NCBI GenBank assembly: GCA_011524735.1
Contig: WTJS01000111.1
Coordinates: 1-34,674, forward strand
Direction of reading: 5' to 3'
DNA: 34,674 bases
DNA from: Alphaproteobacteria bacterium
GTDB taxonomy: Bacteria > Pseudomonadota > Alphaproteobacteria > Puniceispirillales > Puniceispirillaceae
A program made the position numbers and the translations under genes. Below, one piece after another: positions 23,618 to 33,505 of the stretch (the first letter of the stretch is position 1; each line of letters starts with the position of its first letter). The notes below the pieces were generated by a model that had not been told where the DNA came from, ran no database searches, and worked only from the letters and a program-made list of their open reading frames with translations.

Positions 23618-24208
23618 TCAGGACGGATCAGGGCCACCCATGGCGTCGGTCCAGTGCCGCCGGCACAGCGACACATATTTCTCATTACCGCCAATATCGA
23701 TTTGCGCGCCCTGCTGGATGACTTCACCCTGTTCGTTTTGACGAACGACCATGGTGGCTTTGCGCCCGCAATGACAGATCGTACGAATTTCCCGCAGCAC
23801 GTCGGCAATCGCAAGAAGCCGGGCACTGCCTGGAAACAGATTTCCCTGAAAGTCAGTGCGAAGCCCGTAACACATCACTGGAATACCCATATCATCAGCA
23901 ATGCAGGCCAGCTGCCAGACCTGTGCCTCACTCAGAAACTGCGCCTCGTCAACCATCACGCAGGCCAGCTCTTGTCTGGCGTGTTCAGTGGCAATCAGGT
24001 CCTGCATGTCAGTATTGGCGTCAAATACAAAGGCGGGCGCCTGAAGGCCGATACGAGATCCAATCTGTCCTTCGCCAACCCGGTCATCCAGCTTGGCTGT
24101 CAGCAGCATGGTGTGCATCCCGCGCTCGCGATAATTATGCGAAGCCTGGAGAAGGATTGTGGTCTTGCCGGCATTCATTGCCGCATATGAAAAATAAAGC
24201 TTGGCCAT
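23618..24208 (-). CDS. tdk: Thymidine kinase
   Basis: MAKLYFSYAAMNAGKTTILLQASHNYRERG P-loop, VMVDEAQFLSEAQV, zinc ligands CHC...C. The ORF extends to 24250. Confidence 0.95.
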   Translation of the reverse strand: MAKLYFSYAAMNAGKTTILLQASHNYRERGMHTMLLTAKLDDRVGEGQIGSRIGLQAPAFVFDANTDMQDLIATEHARQELACVMVDEAQFLSEAQVWQLACIADDMGIPVMCYGLRTDFQGNLFPGSARLLAIADVLREIRTICHCGRKATMVVRQNEQGEVIQQGAQIDIGGNEKYVSLCRRHWTDAMGGPDPS

Positions 24209-24341
24209 GATGACTCCGGCAGACATGGGGTAACGCTGGATCGTCGCCATTCTGCCGTCCAGCTGCGGATTTGTGAATGGAAAATGCCAACACTTGCCGC
24301 TAGGCTTGGGCCAAGTAATCAGAACAGTTTGGACTCAGCCG

Positions 24342-24995
24342 ATGACGCAAGACGCTGCCGCCAGCACCCCTCATCTTCACGTGATGGATCATCCGCTTGT
24401 AGATCACAAGCTTGCTATTCTACGTGCTCGGGAAACACCAAGCCATGTGTTTCGCCAGACGCTGCAGGAGCTGTCCTGGTTAATGGCGCATCCTACTTTT
24501 GCAGCATTGAAGACCGAAACGGCCCAAATCGACACCCCTCTTGAGGCGATGGATGTACGCCGTATGGCTTCACCCTTTCCCTGTCTTGTCTCTATTCTAC
24601 GTGCGGGTAACGGGCTGATTGACGGGTTCAGCCAGATCTGCCCAGAGGCCAGTATTGGTCATCTTGGACTATATCGTGATCATGAAACGATGAAGCCTGT
24701 TGCCTATTACTCCAGCCTGCCAGGTGATATTGAGATCCGTCAGGTCATTCTGGGAGATCCAATGCTGGCCACAGGAGGCAGTGCGATCATGGCAGTCGAT
24801 ACTCTTCGAGACAAAGGCGTTTCTGATATAGTCTTTGCTTGTCTGGTGGCGGCCCCCGAAGGTGTGGCGGCGCTTCATGGCAGCTACCCTGACGTGCCCA
24901 TTATCACGGCCGCGCTGGATCGCGAACTCAATGACAGCTGCTATATTCTGCCCGGCCTAGGGGATGCGGGAGACCGTATCTATGGAACCGAATAA
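24342..24995 (+). CDS. upp: Uracil phosphoribosyltransferase
   Basis: HVMDHPLVDHKLAILRARETPSHVFRQTLQELSWLM, LVSILRAGNGLIDG, GDPMLATGGSAIMAVD, ALDRELNDSCYILPGLGDAGDRIYGTE. Confidence 0.95.
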   Translation: MTQDAAASTPHLHVMDHPLVDHKLAILRARETPSHVFRQTLQELSWLMAHPTFAALKTETAQIDTPLEAMDVRRMASPFPCLVSILRAGNGLIDGFSQICPEASIGHLGLYRDHETMKPVAYYSSLPGDIEIRQVILGDPMLATGGSAIMAVDTLRDKGVSDIVFACLVAAPEGVAALHGSYPDVPIITAALDRELNDSCYILPGLGDAGDRIYGTE

Positions 24996-25057: not shown

Positions 25058-25462
25058 TCACGTCAGATTTTCGGGGCCAAAGCTTTCCGGCAGAAGGTCA
25101 CCAAGCGTAAAGCTTGCCTTTAGTCCGTCGGGGCCGGCGACAAGAATGGGTGTGTTCTGATCACCAAATTCGCGAATGCGCTGGCGGCAGGCACCGCAAG
25201 GTGTGCACAGCATACTCCCATCTCCGCCAGCAACGGCGATGCTCACAATTTTCCTTCCGCCAGCCATTACCATAGCGGCAATGGCACTTGCCTCAGCGCA
25301 GTTGCCGACCGGATAGGCAGCATTTTCCACATTGACCCCGACATGCGTTGCGCCCGTCTCGTCCCGCAATGCGACCCCGACCGGGAAGTGGGAATAGGGG
25401 GCATAGGCCTTTGCCATGGCAGTGATGGCGGCCTCTACAAGCTCATTGTCCGGCTGTTCCAT
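25058..25462 (-). CDS. cdd: Cytidine deaminase
   Basis: AMAKAYAPYSHFPVGVALRDETG, GVNVENAAYPVGNCAEASAIAAMV, CTPCGACRQRIREF. Start ambiguous (25462, 25480 or 25540). Confidence 0.95.
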   Translation of the reverse strand: MEQPDNELVEAAITAMAKAYAPYSHFPVGVALRDETGATHVGVNVENAAYPVGNCAEASAIAAMVMAGGRKIVSIAVAGGDGSMLCTPCGACRQRIREFGDQNTPILVAGPDGLKASFTLGDLLPESFGPENLT

Positions 25463-25466
25463 CTGG

Positions 25467-26741
25467 TCATTCCTTGACATAGGGTTTGCCAATGGCGGCG
25501 GGAGGACGCGCTTGTCCAACAAGTCCGGCAACAACGACAATGGTCGCGATATAGGGGGCCATCGACAGGAATTCGGATGGTATAGGCGTGTTCAGGATCG
25601 ACAGCTTCTGCTGCAATGAATCAGCAAATCCAAAGATCAGTGCGGCCGCCAGAGCACCAAGCGGGTGCCAGCGCCCAAAAATCATCGCAGCAAGTCCGAT
25701 AAAGCCACGCCCGAATGTCATATTGTCATCGAAGCGGCCAACCGACCCCAGCGTGAACCAGGCCCCACCAAATCCGGCGATCATGCCGGCGACAATCACA
25801 TGGGCATAGCGGGTTTTGATCACATCAATGCCAAGCGTGTCGGCGGCGCGCGGATGTTCACCAACGGCGCGGGCCCGCAGCCCCATGCGGGTGTAGAACA
25901 GGTAATAGGTCGACAGGCAGACCAGCATCAGCGCGCCATAGACAAACAAATTCTGATTGAACAGAACCGGCCCAATGAGAGGAATGTCACTCAACACCGG
26001 GATCTTGAAAGCGCGGAAGGGGGACGCATTGTTAAGCCAGCGATATTCGGTGAAGAGCTGGCTGGAAACATAGCTGGTGAGTCCCAGCACAAACAGATTG
26101 ATCACAACCCCGGCAATAATCTGGTCAACCCGATAGCTGATCACAAGAATGGCCAACAGCAGACCAAACATGCCGCCGGTCAGCATCGCACAGATGATAC
26201 CGGCCCATCCTCCCATCAGCGATCCAAACATCGCACCGGCAAAGGCCCCAGCCAGAAGCATGCCTTCAATGCCGATATTGATCACGGCGACGCGCTCACA
26301 CAGAATTCCGGCAAGGGCAGCGAGAGCGATGGGGACTGCGCGCACCAGAGTGGCGTGCAGCATGCCGGTCAGGGAAATGGCCTTGTCGGCCGTTGCCCAG
26401 ACAAGAAAAGCCATGGCCAGAATGACGAGCCCGGTTCCCATGGCCAGTGCGGTCCAGCGGCCACCGCCACGCAGAAATAATCTTGTCCCCAAAAAGGCCA
26501 GCGCAATGGCCGCGATGGTATTGAACCACTGGCTTGGGACCGTCAGATTGCCAACCGCCCAGACATCTCGTGGTCGCGAGATCCGAAAGGTTGAAACGGC
26601 ATCCCAGCTGGTATCAAGAAACAGCGCCACGACCAGGGCCAGAAAAATCAGCAGGCCACCCGTAATTGAAGCGCGCCAATCAATGCTGCGCACAGGTGTG
26701 ATGGCAGATGATGATGGTGGTGTCGGACGGCTGCTGCTCAT
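25467..26741 (-). CDS. ABC transporter permease, BMP-type nucleoside importer
   Basis: Multi-pass protein with AGILCERVAVINIGIEGMLLAGAFAGAMFGSL and AVGEHPRAADTLGIDV motifs of the nucleoside-importer permease family (YufQ/NupC type). Confidence 0.9.
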   Translation of the reverse strand: MSSSRPTPPSSSAITPVRSIDWRASITGGLLIFLALVVALFLDTSWDAVSTFRISRPRDVWAVGNLTVPSQWFNTIAAIALAFLGTRLFLRGGGRWTALAMGTGLVILAMAFLVWATADKAISLTGMLHATLVRAVPIALAALAGILCERVAVINIGIEGMLLAGAFAGAMFGSLMGGWAGIICAMLTGGMFGLLLAILVISYRVDQIIAGVVINLFVLGLTSYVSSQLFTEYRWLNNASPFRAFKIPVLSDIPLIGPVLFNQNLFVYGALMLVCLSTYYLFYTRMGLRARAVGEHPRAADTLGIDVIKTRYAHVIVAGMIAGFGGAWFTLGSVGRFDDNMTFGRGFIGLAAMIFGRWHPLGALAAALIFGFADSLQQKLSILNTPIPSEFLSMAPYIATIVVVAGLVGQARPPAAIGKPYVKE

Positions 26742-27892
26742 GATGCGTCCTCATTCACCGACTTTGTTCGGAATAGGGGTGGCAGGATTCGCTTCACCAG
26801 CAGAGGCGCCGCCACAAAGATGATGATCAGAGCCTGAATGATGCTGATTAGATCAATGGATACACCTGCATCAACCTGCATCTGGCGACCACCTGCCTCC
26901 AGGGCACCAAACAGCAACCCTGCCAGCAGGATGCCCACAGGGTGCGATCGGCCCAGAAGCGCGACGGCGATGGCATCAAATCCAATGCCAGCCGAAAAGC
27001 CGGGTGAGGCCCGCCCCAGAACCCCAGTAATCTGGGTGGCCCCTGCCAGACCAGCCAGCGCCCCGGCAATGGCCATGGCCAGGATGATTGTCAGGCCTGA
27101 TCGGATGCCGGCATAGCGGGCCGCCTGCGGGTTTTCTCCAGAAATGCGAAAGGCAAAGCCAAGCTTGGAGCGGTAGAGCAGCCAATAGACCAGCAGCACG
27201 GCTGCAAGCATGATGAACAGCCCGGCATGAAGCCGCAGATTACCGTCAAAGAAAGACAGGAGGCGTGGCAGTTCCGCACTTTCCAGAACCGCCTTGGAAA
27301 TCGGATCTGATCGGCCTTCCTTCTGAATGAAAGGCTGGCGCAGGAAATAATCCAGAAGCCGAAAGGAGATCAGATTCAGCATGATGGTGGAAATCACCTC
27401 ATGCGCCCCGGTTGTCGCCCGCAGGAATCCGGCGATGGCAGCATAGAGGGCCCCCACCGCCAGTCCAACCATGAGCACAAGCGGCAGGTGAATGATCGAT
27501 GGCAGGCCTGTCAGGCTAAAACTGGCAACAGCTGCTGCCAGCCCGCCAACCACCATTTGCCCCTCGGCGCCGATGTTGAACAGCCCGGCCCGGAAGGCAA
27601 GACCAATTCCAAGCCCGGCCAGGACCAGCGGGATGGTCGCGGTCAGTGTTTCGGAAATGGCGTGAAGTGAGCCAACTGAGCCGCGCGCCATGGCGATGAA
27701 GCTCTGTAGAATGGTGGCCGGCGACACGGATGTCGCCATCATGATGAGCGCACCGAACAATAGGGCAAGCATCACAGCCGCCAGCGGCACCATGAACAAT
27801 TCGCGCCAGGCGCCATCCCGATCAATAGGTGGTGCCATCAACGCACGAACGGCATCGCGCGTGGTGTCCGATTTGTGCTCGGTCTGGCTCAT
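26738..27892 (-). CDS. ABC transporter permease, BMP-type nucleoside importer
   Basis: GLGIGLAFRAGLFNIGAEGQMVVGGLAAA, FAFRISGENPQAARYAGI (YufP/NupB type). ATGA overlap with the downstream permease. Confidence 0.9.
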   Translation of the reverse strand: MSQTEHKSDTTRDAVRALMAPPIDRDGAWRELFMVPLAAVMLALLFGALIMMATSVSPATILQSFIAMARGSVGSLHAISETLTATIPLVLAGLGIGLAFRAGLFNIGAEGQMVVGGLAAAVASFSLTGLPSIIHLPLVLMVGLAVGALYAAIAGFLRATTGAHEVISTIMLNLISFRLLDYFLRQPFIQKEGRSDPISKAVLESAELPRLLSFFDGNLRLHAGLFIMLAAVLLVYWLLYRSKLGFAFRISGENPQAARYAGIRSGLTIILAMAIAGALAGLAGATQITGVLGRASPGFSAGIGFDAIAVALLGRSHPVGILLAGLLFGALEAGGRQMQVDAGVSIDLISIIQALIIIFVAAPLLVKRILPPLFRTKSVNEDAS

Positions 27893-29457
27893 GCGGATGC
27901 CCCCATCAGGGTTGCGTCAGATGGGCTGTCATCAGTGCCAATGCCGGCCATGGCCAGTCCGATCTGGTTTCGGTCGGCGCCGCCTGATCCATCTTCAGCG
28001 CGATGATTATCAAATTCGGCTATTACCCGTCCGCCATACATCACATAGATTCGGTCAGACAGATCCAGAATCTCATCAAGTTCAGACGAGACGATCAGCA
28101 CAGCGTTACCGCGGTCGCGGCAGGCAACAAGCTGACTGTGGATATATTCAATCGATCCAACATCCACACCCCGCGTTGGTTGTGAGGCCACGACAAGACG
28201 GACATCACGTTCCAGCTCGCGTGCGACGACCATTTTCTGCTGATTGCCACCTGACAGGCTGCCGGCCCCCAGAAAGACGCTTGGCGTACGAACATCATAT
28301 TTCAGACAGGCTTCGGCCGCCTGGTCATGGACCTGTTGCCAGTCAATCTGGACACCCCGTGCCACGGGGTCATCATAATAGGAATTCAGCACCATGTTTT
28401 CCGCAACGGAAAAGCTGGCCACCATACCGGATCTCTGGCGGTCTTCAGGAATATGCGCAATGCCCATGGCATGGCGCGCCCGCACGCTGCTGCTGGTGAT
28501 CTCGTTGTTCAGAAACCGGACGCTGCCGCCATTGAGGCCTGTCAGCCCGGTAATGGCCTCCACAAGTTCCGTTTGGCCATTGCCCTGAACGCCGGCAATG
28601 CCGACAATTTCGCCTGCCCGTACATTCAGGCTGATGTCTGACAGCCGCACATCCTGACCGCCTTCGATCATGGTGACACCATCAAGCTCCAGCACTGTCT
28701 GACCCGGAGTGGCAGCTGTCCTGCCAACGGAAAAGCTCACCGGGCGCCCCACCATCATTTCGGCAAGGTCGCCTTCAGAAAATTCACTTGGGGTGCCATG
28801 ACCGACAATTCTGCCCTGACGCAGGACACTGACCCGATCGGCAATTTCCATAATTTCATGCAGCTTGTGGGTGATGAAGACAATGGCCTTGCCGGCATCC
28901 CGCAGGGCGCGGACGATGGCAAAGAAAGACTCGACCTCCTGCGGTGTCAGCACGGCGGTTGGTTCATCCAGGATCAGCACATCGGCCGACCGGAACAGAA
29001 CTTTCAGAATTTCCACCCGCTGCTGAATGCCGACGGGAAGATCTTCGATTAATGTGTCGCTTGGCACGTCCATGCCGTAGCGGGCGTTGATCTGCTGCAC
29101 CTGTTCCCGTGCTGTGTCCAGATCAAGGAAATCGCCTTTCCCAGTCGGTTCAACACCGAGAATTACATTTTCAACAACGGAAAATACTGGAACCAGCATG
29201 AAATGCTGGTGCACCATCCCAATACCACTGGCAATGCTATCACCAGGGCCGGCAAACTGCACTGGCTTGCCATCAATCAGGATTTCGCCGGTATCCGGCT
29301 GGTACAGGCCGGACAGAATATTCATCAGGGTAGATTTGCCGGCACCATTCTCACCAAGAAGGCCAAGCACTTCGCCTGGCTGGATCGCCAGATCGATCTC
29401 CTGGTTGGCCAGAACCAGGCCGAACCGCTTGCTGATGCCCTGCAACTCAATCTTCAT
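27889..29457 (-). CDS. ABC transporter ATP-binding protein with two ATPase domains, BMP-type nucleoside importer
   Basis: MKIELQGISKRFGLVLANQEIDLAIQPGEVLGLLGENGAGKSTLMNILSGLYQPDTG; second domain with LSGGNQQKMVVAREL. 4-bp overlap with the permease. Confidence 0.93.
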   Translation of the reverse strand: MKIELQGISKRFGLVLANQEIDLAIQPGEVLGLLGENGAGKSTLMNILSGLYQPDTGEILIDGKPVQFAGPGDSIASGIGMVHQHFMLVPVFSVVENVILGVEPTGKGDFLDLDTAREQVQQINARYGMDVPSDTLIEDLPVGIQQRVEILKVLFRSADVLILDEPTAVLTPQEVESFFAIVRALRDAGKAIVFITHKLHEIMEIADRVSVLRQGRIVGHGTPSEFSEGDLAEMMVGRPVSFSVGRTAATPGQTVLELDGVTMIEGGQDVRLSDISLNVRAGEIVGIAGVQGNGQTELVEAITGLTGLNGGSVRFLNNEITSSSVRARHAMGIAHIPEDRQRSGMVASFSVAENMVLNSYYDDPVARGVQIDWQQVHDQAAEACLKYDVRTPSVFLGAGSLSGGNQQKMVVARELERDVRLVVASQPTRGVDVGSIEYIHSQLVACRDRGNAVLIVSSELDEILDLSDRIYVMYGGRVIAEFDNHRAEDGSGGADRNQIGLAMAGIGTDDSPSDATLMGASA

Positions 29458-29474
29458 ATAGACATTCCACAATC

Positions 29475-30712: not shown

Positions 30713-31546
30713 TCAGGATTTCAAGCCAATTTCACGCAGACGCTGCTGCAGATAATCATCGGCTGTTACCCCTTCGGCCAGTGGTGCCTCAGGGTGGGGA
30801 TGCAGAAACATTGGCATCGAATAGCGTGACACATTCTCAATCTGATCAGGGTTGGTCACGCGATGTGTTGTCGATGGAAAATAATTATCCGTTGCCAGTG
30901 CCAGCATGTCGCCATTGTTGATTGTGATCATCCCGGCATCACAGGCGATATCATGCCAGTCACCACTGGCATCCTTGGCCTGAAGCCCTGGCTTTGAGCC
31001 GGAGAGCAGCAGCGTGATCAGGTTGATATCTTCATGCGCGGCGGCGCGGATGGCGCCTGGCTCGGCATCTTCAACCGGCGGATAATGCAGAATGCGCAGA
31101 AGGCTCTGATCGCTGCCCTTCATCATATCCCCAAGTGGCATTTTCAGCTTTTCCGCGACGCTTGTCGGTGCCCCTTGTTCAATCCAGTGCAGCAGTTCGC
31201 GTCCCAGCGTTTCAAGATCGGCATAGATTTCGCGGGTGATCCGGGTCAGCTCTTCAGGCAGACGGCAGCCCGGATAGACATGAAAGAATTCCTTCAGATC
31301 CTTCACCGGAGAATCCTTGGCATTTTCTGACCGAAAGGCAAAATACCCGTCATGTGCAGGGGGTTGCACGGCATAGTCAAACTTGTCCTGCCCGGCAAAA
31401 AAGTCACCCCATGCGGCGTAGATGGTATCGATACGTTCCGGGGTAATCGGGTGGTTGGCAAGTACCGCAAAGCCCGTATCGCGCAGTGATCGCGTCAGTG
31501 TTTCGCCAGCATCGCTGGCGCGGTAATCAACCGTTTCAACATTCAT
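30713..31546 (-). CDS. Isopenicillin N synthase-like Fe(II)/2-oxoglutarate-dependent dioxygenase
   Basis: HxD...H triad (AAAHEDINLITLLL ... STTHRV), the RYSMPMFLHP motif, and N-terminal DIOX_N-like GFAVLANHPIT. Confidence 0.9.
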   Translation of the reverse strand: MNVETVDYRASDAGETLTRSLRDTGFAVLANHPITPERIDTIYAAWGDFFAGQDKFDYAVQPPAHDGYFAFRSENAKDSPVKDLKEFFHVYPGCRLPEELTRITREIYADLETLGRELLHWIEQGAPTSVAEKLKMPLGDMMKGSDQSLLRILHYPPVEDAEPGAIRAAAHEDINLITLLLSGSKPGLQAKDASGDWHDIACDAGMITINNGDMLALATDNYFPSTTHRVTNPDQIENVSRYSMPMFLHPHPEAPLAEGVTADDYLQQRLREIGLKS

Positions 31547-32617: not shown

Positions 32618-33505
32618 TTAATTATGGGTGGCGAGGATGGCTGTTACTTCACCACGTGCCGGGATGGCCAGGCCTGCGCCGGACCGGGTGACCTGAATGG
32701 CCGCCGCGGCATTGGCGTCAGCAAGCGCCGCTGACACAGGCTGATCATTTGCAAGGGCGGCAAGAAAGAATCCAAAGAAACAGTCGCCAGCTCCGGTTGT
32801 ATCCACAGGATCAACGGGCAGAGCAGGCTGATGTAAGGTGCCAGCCTCACCAAAATAATCGGCACCGTCTCCACCACGGGTGATAACAAGATGGGCAAGC
32901 CCAAATTCCTTTGCCGGTCTGCCTAGCATGTCTGCAAGCGCTGCAGCCTCACCTTCATTGACCACCAGAAGATCGGTCACGGGTAGCAGTCTTGCCACAA
33001 TGTCTGCCTCGAACGGAGCCGCACTATAGGCAAGCTTCAGTCCGCGCGCCTTGGCTGCTGCAACAAAGTCATCGCCGCCATTCGTCTCATTCTGCAAAAG
33101 GGCCCAGTCGCCCTTATCTGCCTGATCCAGAACCGCACAGGCAGCGGCCATATCAATGCCGCGGTTTGCCCCCGGACAGAGAAGAATTTGATTTTCCGCC
33201 TCCTGGTTGACCGCGACGATGGCATGGCCGGTGGCAAGGTCGCTGGACTGAATATGGGTGATATCAACGCCGTCATCCTGCATCTGTGCCGTCAGCCACG
33301 CGTCAGCAGGATTGATCGCCCCGATGTGAATTGTATGGGCCCCAGCCTTGGCCAGTGCAATTGACTGGTTGGCCCCTTTGCCGCCAAGCGTGCGCTGGTG
33401 ATCCAGTGTTGTCAGTGTTTCGCCGGGTGCCGGAAAATGTGGCACCGAATAGAACAGATCGAGATTGATTGAGCCAAGATTGAAAACTGTCATCACCGGC
33501 GACAT
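32618..33505 (-). CDS. rbsK: Ribokinase / PfkB family sugar kinase
   Basis: FNLGSINLDLFYSVPHFPAPGETL, RTLGGKGANQSIALAKAG, and DTTGAGDCFFGFFLAAL. Sugar specificity is inferred from context. Confidence 0.87.
   Translation of the reverse strand: MSPVMTVFNLGSINLDLFYSVPHFPAPGETLTTLDHQRTLGGKGANQSIALAKAGAHTIHIGAINPADAWLTAQMQDDGVDITHIQSSDLATGHAIVAVNQEAENQILLCPGANRGIDMAAACAVLDQADKGDWALLQNETNGGDDFVAAAKARGLKLAYSAAPFEADIVARLLPVTDLLVVNEGEAAALADMLGRPAKEFGLAHLVITRGGDGADYFGEAGTLHQPALPVDPVDTTGAGDCFFGFFLAALANDQPVSAALADANAAAAIQVTRSGAGLAIPARGEVTAILATHN

Follow-up and report, generated by a model that had tools for sequence, protein, structure and literature searches.

A candidate deoxynucleoside 2'-hydroxylase gene that exchanges places with deoC in bacterial nucleoside operons

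The window, the whole stretch of 34,674 nucleotides of alphaproteobacterial DNA analysed here, carries a gene for an Fe(II)/2OG-dependent oxygenase among genes for nucleoside import and breakdown. The genes are the following:

32618..33505, minus strand: ribokinase-like PfkB kinase (rbsK); PF00294, best NCBIfam model TIGR02152
31595..32590, minus strand: IUNH-type nucleoside hydrolase (NH); IU_nuc_hydro E=3.5e-85, DTDPGIDD motif, nearest solved structures nucleoside N-ribohydrolases
30713..31546, minus strand: Fe(II)/2OG-dependent oxygenase, IPNS-like, candidate deoxynucleoside 2'-hydroxylase; PF03171/PF14226, model fold, invariant catalytic residues
29526..30551, minus strand: BMP/PnrA-type substrate-binding protein; PF02608 E=4e-51, PDB relatives 7x0r, BmpA and TmpC
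27889..29472, minus strand: ABC importer ATPase with two ATPase domains; PF00005, two stretches
26738..27892, minus strand: ABC importer permease 1; PF02653 (BPD_transp_2)
25467..26741, minus strand: ABC importer permease 2; PF02653 (BPD_transp_2)
25058..25540, minus strand: cytidine deaminase (cdd); TIGR01354 over cut-off
24273..24995, plus strand: uracil phosphoribosyltransferase (upp); TIGR01091 over cut-off
23618..24250, minus strand: thymidine kinase (tdk); NF003300 over cut-off

The first-pass annotation had described an oxygenase with an HxD...H motif lying on the minus strand with rbsK, NH, a BMP importer and cdd, and all of these coordinates and strands were confirmed. The spacing is 27 bp between rbsK and NH, 48 bp between NH and the oxygenase, 161 bp between the oxygenase and the BMP gene and 53 bp between the latter and the ATPase gene; the remaining genes overlap. 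The tdk and upp genes, also described as adjacent, do adjoin the cluster, but upp is outside the operon because it is on the plus strand, and tdk is situated past it. The TTG start listed for cdd places its first 74 bp inside the permease gene (25467-25540), and the true start is more likely an internal ATG further in. NH combines the IU_nuc_hydro domain with the N-terminal metal-binding motif at residue 22. The rbsK product contains the PfkB motifs and scored 195 bits against the ribokinase equivalog TIGR02152 (cut-off 299.65); it is named by resemblance, as ribokinase-like only.

The oxygenase ORF is intact and encodes 277 amino acids. Its domain composition (DIOX_N, E=1e-10, 42.5 bits vs. 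a Pfam cut-off of 27.3; 2OG-FeII_Oxy, E=4e-17, 62.7 bits vs. 23), its HxD...H and RxS motifs and its fold place it among the IPNS-like Fe(II)/2OG oxygenases. PF03171 and PF14226 were the only Pfam matches, with no PHYH-type domain, and the NCBIfam profile search returned no name. Oxygenase matches were present in 54 of 61 related genomes (E<=1e-3). The metal triad (H171-x-D173...H228) and the 2OG pair R241/S243 are invariant in 44 relatives; R151, Y155, R241 and S243, which correspond to the 2OG ligands of thymine-7-hydroxylase (T7H) (PMC4787775), are invariant or nearly so among them. The AlphaFold model (pLDDT 90.4) matched, best first, Shewanella oneidensis SO_2589 (3on7, TM 0.90), Caulobacter 3oox and Neurospora T7H (TM about 0.8), a pyrimidine oxygenase and the nearest functionally characterised fold. 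SO_2589 was also the best PDB relative by sequence (E=2e-86); it is a member of this oxygenase family, with 49% identical residues when the folds are aligned, but its close tree neighbours are unlinked to nucleoside genes and lie in deoC-positive genomes. Searches of the open-access literature turned up nothing about what SO_2589 does and no account of a deoxynucleoside 2'-hydroxylase from bacteria.

The rbsK-NH-oxygenase-BMP ABC importer-cdd operon has been conserved in SAR116 and in part of the Rhodobacteraceae. Of 80 fetched loci, many of which are interrupted by contig ends, 35 have NH together with the oxygenase; they come from SAR116, Amylibacter/HTCC2255, Pacificispira and Leucothrix. 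In a tree of 114 oxygenase sequences, NH-linked members occupy three or more separate positions: one is the alphaproteobacterial clade, another is Leucothrix together with L095, and a third is the gammaproteobacterium G423. The last has the rbsK-NH-oxygenase arrangement, while NH/rbsK is divergent from the oxygenase in Leucothrix L099 and in L095. The first-pass annotation would have been refuted by homologues that show no conserved linkage to nucleoside genes; instead, such linkage is kept and has arisen more than once. Two importer types occupy the same position, one in most of the window's genus and a second in most other SAR116 and Rhodobacteraceae. The two (BMP protein, ATPase and both permeases; window, L031-L036 and L048 vs. 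L037-L047) are about 30-46% identical, the binding protein about 30%; the importer was swapped while rbsK-NH-oxygenase stayed.

A different set of partners was found in one gammaproteobacterial family (f47), where 45 genomes carry the oxygenase on the same strand 3' of udk and nupC, the gene for a CNT-type nucleoside transporter. The nupC-oxygenase pair was on the same strand in 45/45 loci (median gap 79 bp), with udk present in 44. This linkage was first met in eight gammaproteobacterial loci of the initial sample; all but one of the loci in that sample were without NH/rbsK, and most of those not linked to nupC had unrelated neighbours. The alphaproteobacterium IMCC14465 also has a nupC-oxygenase pair. 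Udk requires a ribonucleoside, and the NH/ribokinase pair likewise requires one as its source of ribose. The requirement shared by both sets of partners points to a ribonucleoside as the product of the oxygenase.

In the textbook route, bacteria use deoxynucleosides by phosphorolysis followed by DeoC. In the 61 genomes of the window's order, no deoC (profile control positive in 10/14 named genomes) and no thymidine phosphorylase deoA (a narrow model that one control passes) scored over the cut-off. Absence from the window genome alone would be weak evidence because that genome is 86% complete, but deoC and deoA were also absent from complete relatives. PNP_UDP_1 matches in the relatives were set aside, since most were weak hits in frames of some 200 aa that do not resemble a DeoD/Udp phosphorylase. 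No deoC was found in the genomes of Leucothrix, L095, L054, Pacificispira, IMCC14465 and Amylibacter, and in G686 and G641, two alphaproteobacteria harbouring both deoC and the oxygenase, the oxygenase is unlinked.

The same relation was seen in f47. Among 95 classifiable oxygenase-bearing genomes of this family, all 45 with a nucleoside-linked oxygenase were deoC-negative, while those with an unlinked oxygenase were deoC-positive in 45 cases and deoC-negative in five. The Fisher p of 1e-21 for this split is overstated, because the genomes share ancestry and the state changes on the tree are few; at least one reversal is seen, since genus g275 (deoC-positive, unlinked) nests within the linked clade. 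All 60 f47 genomes with deoA over the cut-off were also deoC-positive. In deoC-positive relatives, deoC follows the orthologous udk-nupC pair on the same strand at 42-152 bp (17 of 20 checked), so that in f47 the slot 3' of nupC carries deoC or else the oxygenase. The pattern recurs with different partner genes in the Alphaproteobacteria, where the orthologous BMP importer block lies near deoC in 10 of 20 deoC-positive genomes, usually with cdd. Two annotated loci read importer-cdd-PNP-deoC-deoA and importer-cdd-PNP-deoC-(one ORF)-deoA-deoB; SAR116 and Amylibacter have rbsK-NH-oxygenase where these deoC-positive alphaproteobacteria have the deoC segment. Where the deo pathway is missing, the oxygenase therefore takes the position of deoC, and mutual exclusion and positional exchange occur in two phyletically separate contexts.

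These observations support the earlier proposal that a deoxynucleoside is converted to a ribonucleoside, through the absence of deoC/deoA, the mutual exclusion with deoC and the exchange of positions; the C2' chemistry itself is deduced. The oxygenase is probably a C2' hydroxylase of imported (pyrimidine) 2'-deoxynucleosides that replaces the deoA/deoC route, a reading based on gene content and order. The gene context argues strongly for a nucleoside as the substrate and gives good support to a deoxynucleoside, while the position of hydroxylation is suggested by the partner enzymes. C2' is the best reading because the product must suit Udk in one lineage and NH plus ribokinase in another, and a single hydroxylation at C2' is the simplest step from a substrate that otherwise needs deoA/deoC to a product that suits both. 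Following import, the oxygenase would carry out the reaction 2'-deoxynucleoside + 2OG + O2 -> ribonucleoside + succinate + CO2. Cdd would deaminate cytidine/deoxycytidine, NH would cleave the resulting ribonucleoside, the ribokinase-like protein would pass the ribose into central metabolism and Upp would salvage uracil; in some gammaproteobacteria the ribonucleoside would go to uridine kinase instead. The oxygenase route would thereby stand in for the phosphorylase and the deoxyribose-phosphate aldolase. The canonical deo pathway (deoA/deoD-deoB-deoC) shares importer partners and operon slots with the oxygenase but proceeds by phosphorolysis and aldolase cleavage and uses no oxygenase. The proposed reaction and its cofactors are those of the fungal pyrimidine-deoxynucleoside 2'-dioxygenase (EC 1.14.11.3), an activity described decades ago to which, to our knowledge, no gene has been assigned. 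The oxygenase differs in being bacterial and in forming a defined gene family. Counting against the proposal, deoxy- and 2'-O-methyl nucleosides are themselves substrates of some nucleoside hydrolases (PMC12709175), so hydroxylation before cleavage is not strictly required.

The main rival explanation is that the oxygenase demethylates 2'-O-methylated ribonucleosides from RNA decay and so supplies NH or Udk. The product would be of the same class, fitting NH/rbsK and udk equally well, and 2OG-dependent demethylation of free 2'-O-methylnucleosides is established for FJS/PHYHD1 (PMC12709175), which also yield ribonucleosides from 2'-modified nucleosides. However, these known demethylases are of the PHYH family, whereas the oxygenase is of the DIOX_N/2OG-FeII_Oxy type, and demethylation leaves unexplained both why nucleoside linkage of the oxygenase coincides with loss of deoC/deoA and why the oxygenase is in the deoC slot; we consider it unlikely. 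Oxidation of the deoxyribose elsewhere, for example at C1' to give the base and deoxyribonolactone, or action on free deoxyribose, would fit the loss of deoC, and fungal 1'-hydroxylation of deoxyuridine counts in favour of C1' attack. A ribokinase with a ribonucleoside hydrolase, or a uridine kinase, would be unneeded as partners, and no deoxyribonate genes were identified beside the oxygenase, making this option quite improbable. Oxidative deoxyribose pathways do exist (PMC6365646): the one in Pseudomonas simiae uses the DNA sugar without deoC, as the proposed route would, but its substrates are free deoxyribose/deoxyribonate and its enzymes are dehydrogenases and a beta-keto acid cleavage enzyme (PMC6365646).

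Hydroxylation of the base had been raised by the first-pass annotation as the alternative and became less likely once the T7H pocket was compared. In this reading the oxygenase would act on thymine or a 5-methyl group, as fungal T7H does, and thymine would be salvaged via uracil. Neurospora T7H (PDB 5c3p/q/r/s) is the closest functionally characterised fold and shares with the oxygenase the HxD...H motif, the 2OG-binding Arg/Ser/Tyr and equivalents of Arg190 and of the stacking Phe292 (F247), and upp is adjacent. Identity is about 24%, however, and two base contacts, Tyr217 and Asn294, are replaced by I174 and H249, both invariant in the oxygenase family, so that the protein does not qualify as a T7H. 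Moreover, none of the annotated neighbours was recognised as an iso-orotate decarboxylase-like gene, and neither the deoC exchange nor the nupC/udk linkage is explained. Base hydroxylation is very improbable.

Hydroxylation at C2' would have wider consequences. DNA is a major source of phosphorus and nitrogen in the sea, and SAR116 and many f47 gammaproteobacteria are without the textbook phosphorolysis/DeoC route; the proposed reaction would explain how SAR116 and the deoC-negative f47 bacteria use DNA. It is somewhat likely that O2-dependent use of DNA nucleosides is widespread in marine bacteria, with a family of 2OG oxygenases having taken over from deoA/deoC through non-orthologous displacement in two or more lineages, and that these are the first bacterial candidate genes for the long-described fungal 2'-hydroxylation. 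The solved structure 3on7 would gain a candidate function, and the oxygenase could serve as a 2'-hydroxylation biocatalyst.

Unlinked oxygenases persist in many deoC-positive genomes (45 in f47, 11 other gammaproteobacteria and most Bdellovibrionota loci checked), so the oxygenase is not simply a deoC substitute. A nucleoside role for all family members is not supported by gene context. There are also linked exceptions in deoC-positive genomes, namely L063 (a MAG, NH-linked), L073 (dCMP-deaminase-linked) and L096 (BMP-linked). The bdellovibrionotal locus L096 (9899-15192) has genes for an isochorismatase-family hydrolase and a BMP-type importer after the oxygenase. Five f47 genomes (G495, G527, G553, G484 and G494) have neither deoC nor a nucleoside-linked oxygenase, and most of them have long branches in the oxygenase tree. 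In one SAR116 subgroup (L057, L061 and L062), the oxygenase adjoins an IscR-SUF operon, away from nucleoside genes; of these genomes, L057 and L061 were tested for deoC, and neither gave a match. In the Fidelibacterota (Neomarinimicrobiota) L073 and L102 (also L075), the oxygenase starts 16-18 bp past a dCMP-deaminase-like gene adjoining SUF genes. SUF genes lie near the oxygenase in distant lineages (L057, L061, L062, L073, L075 and L083).
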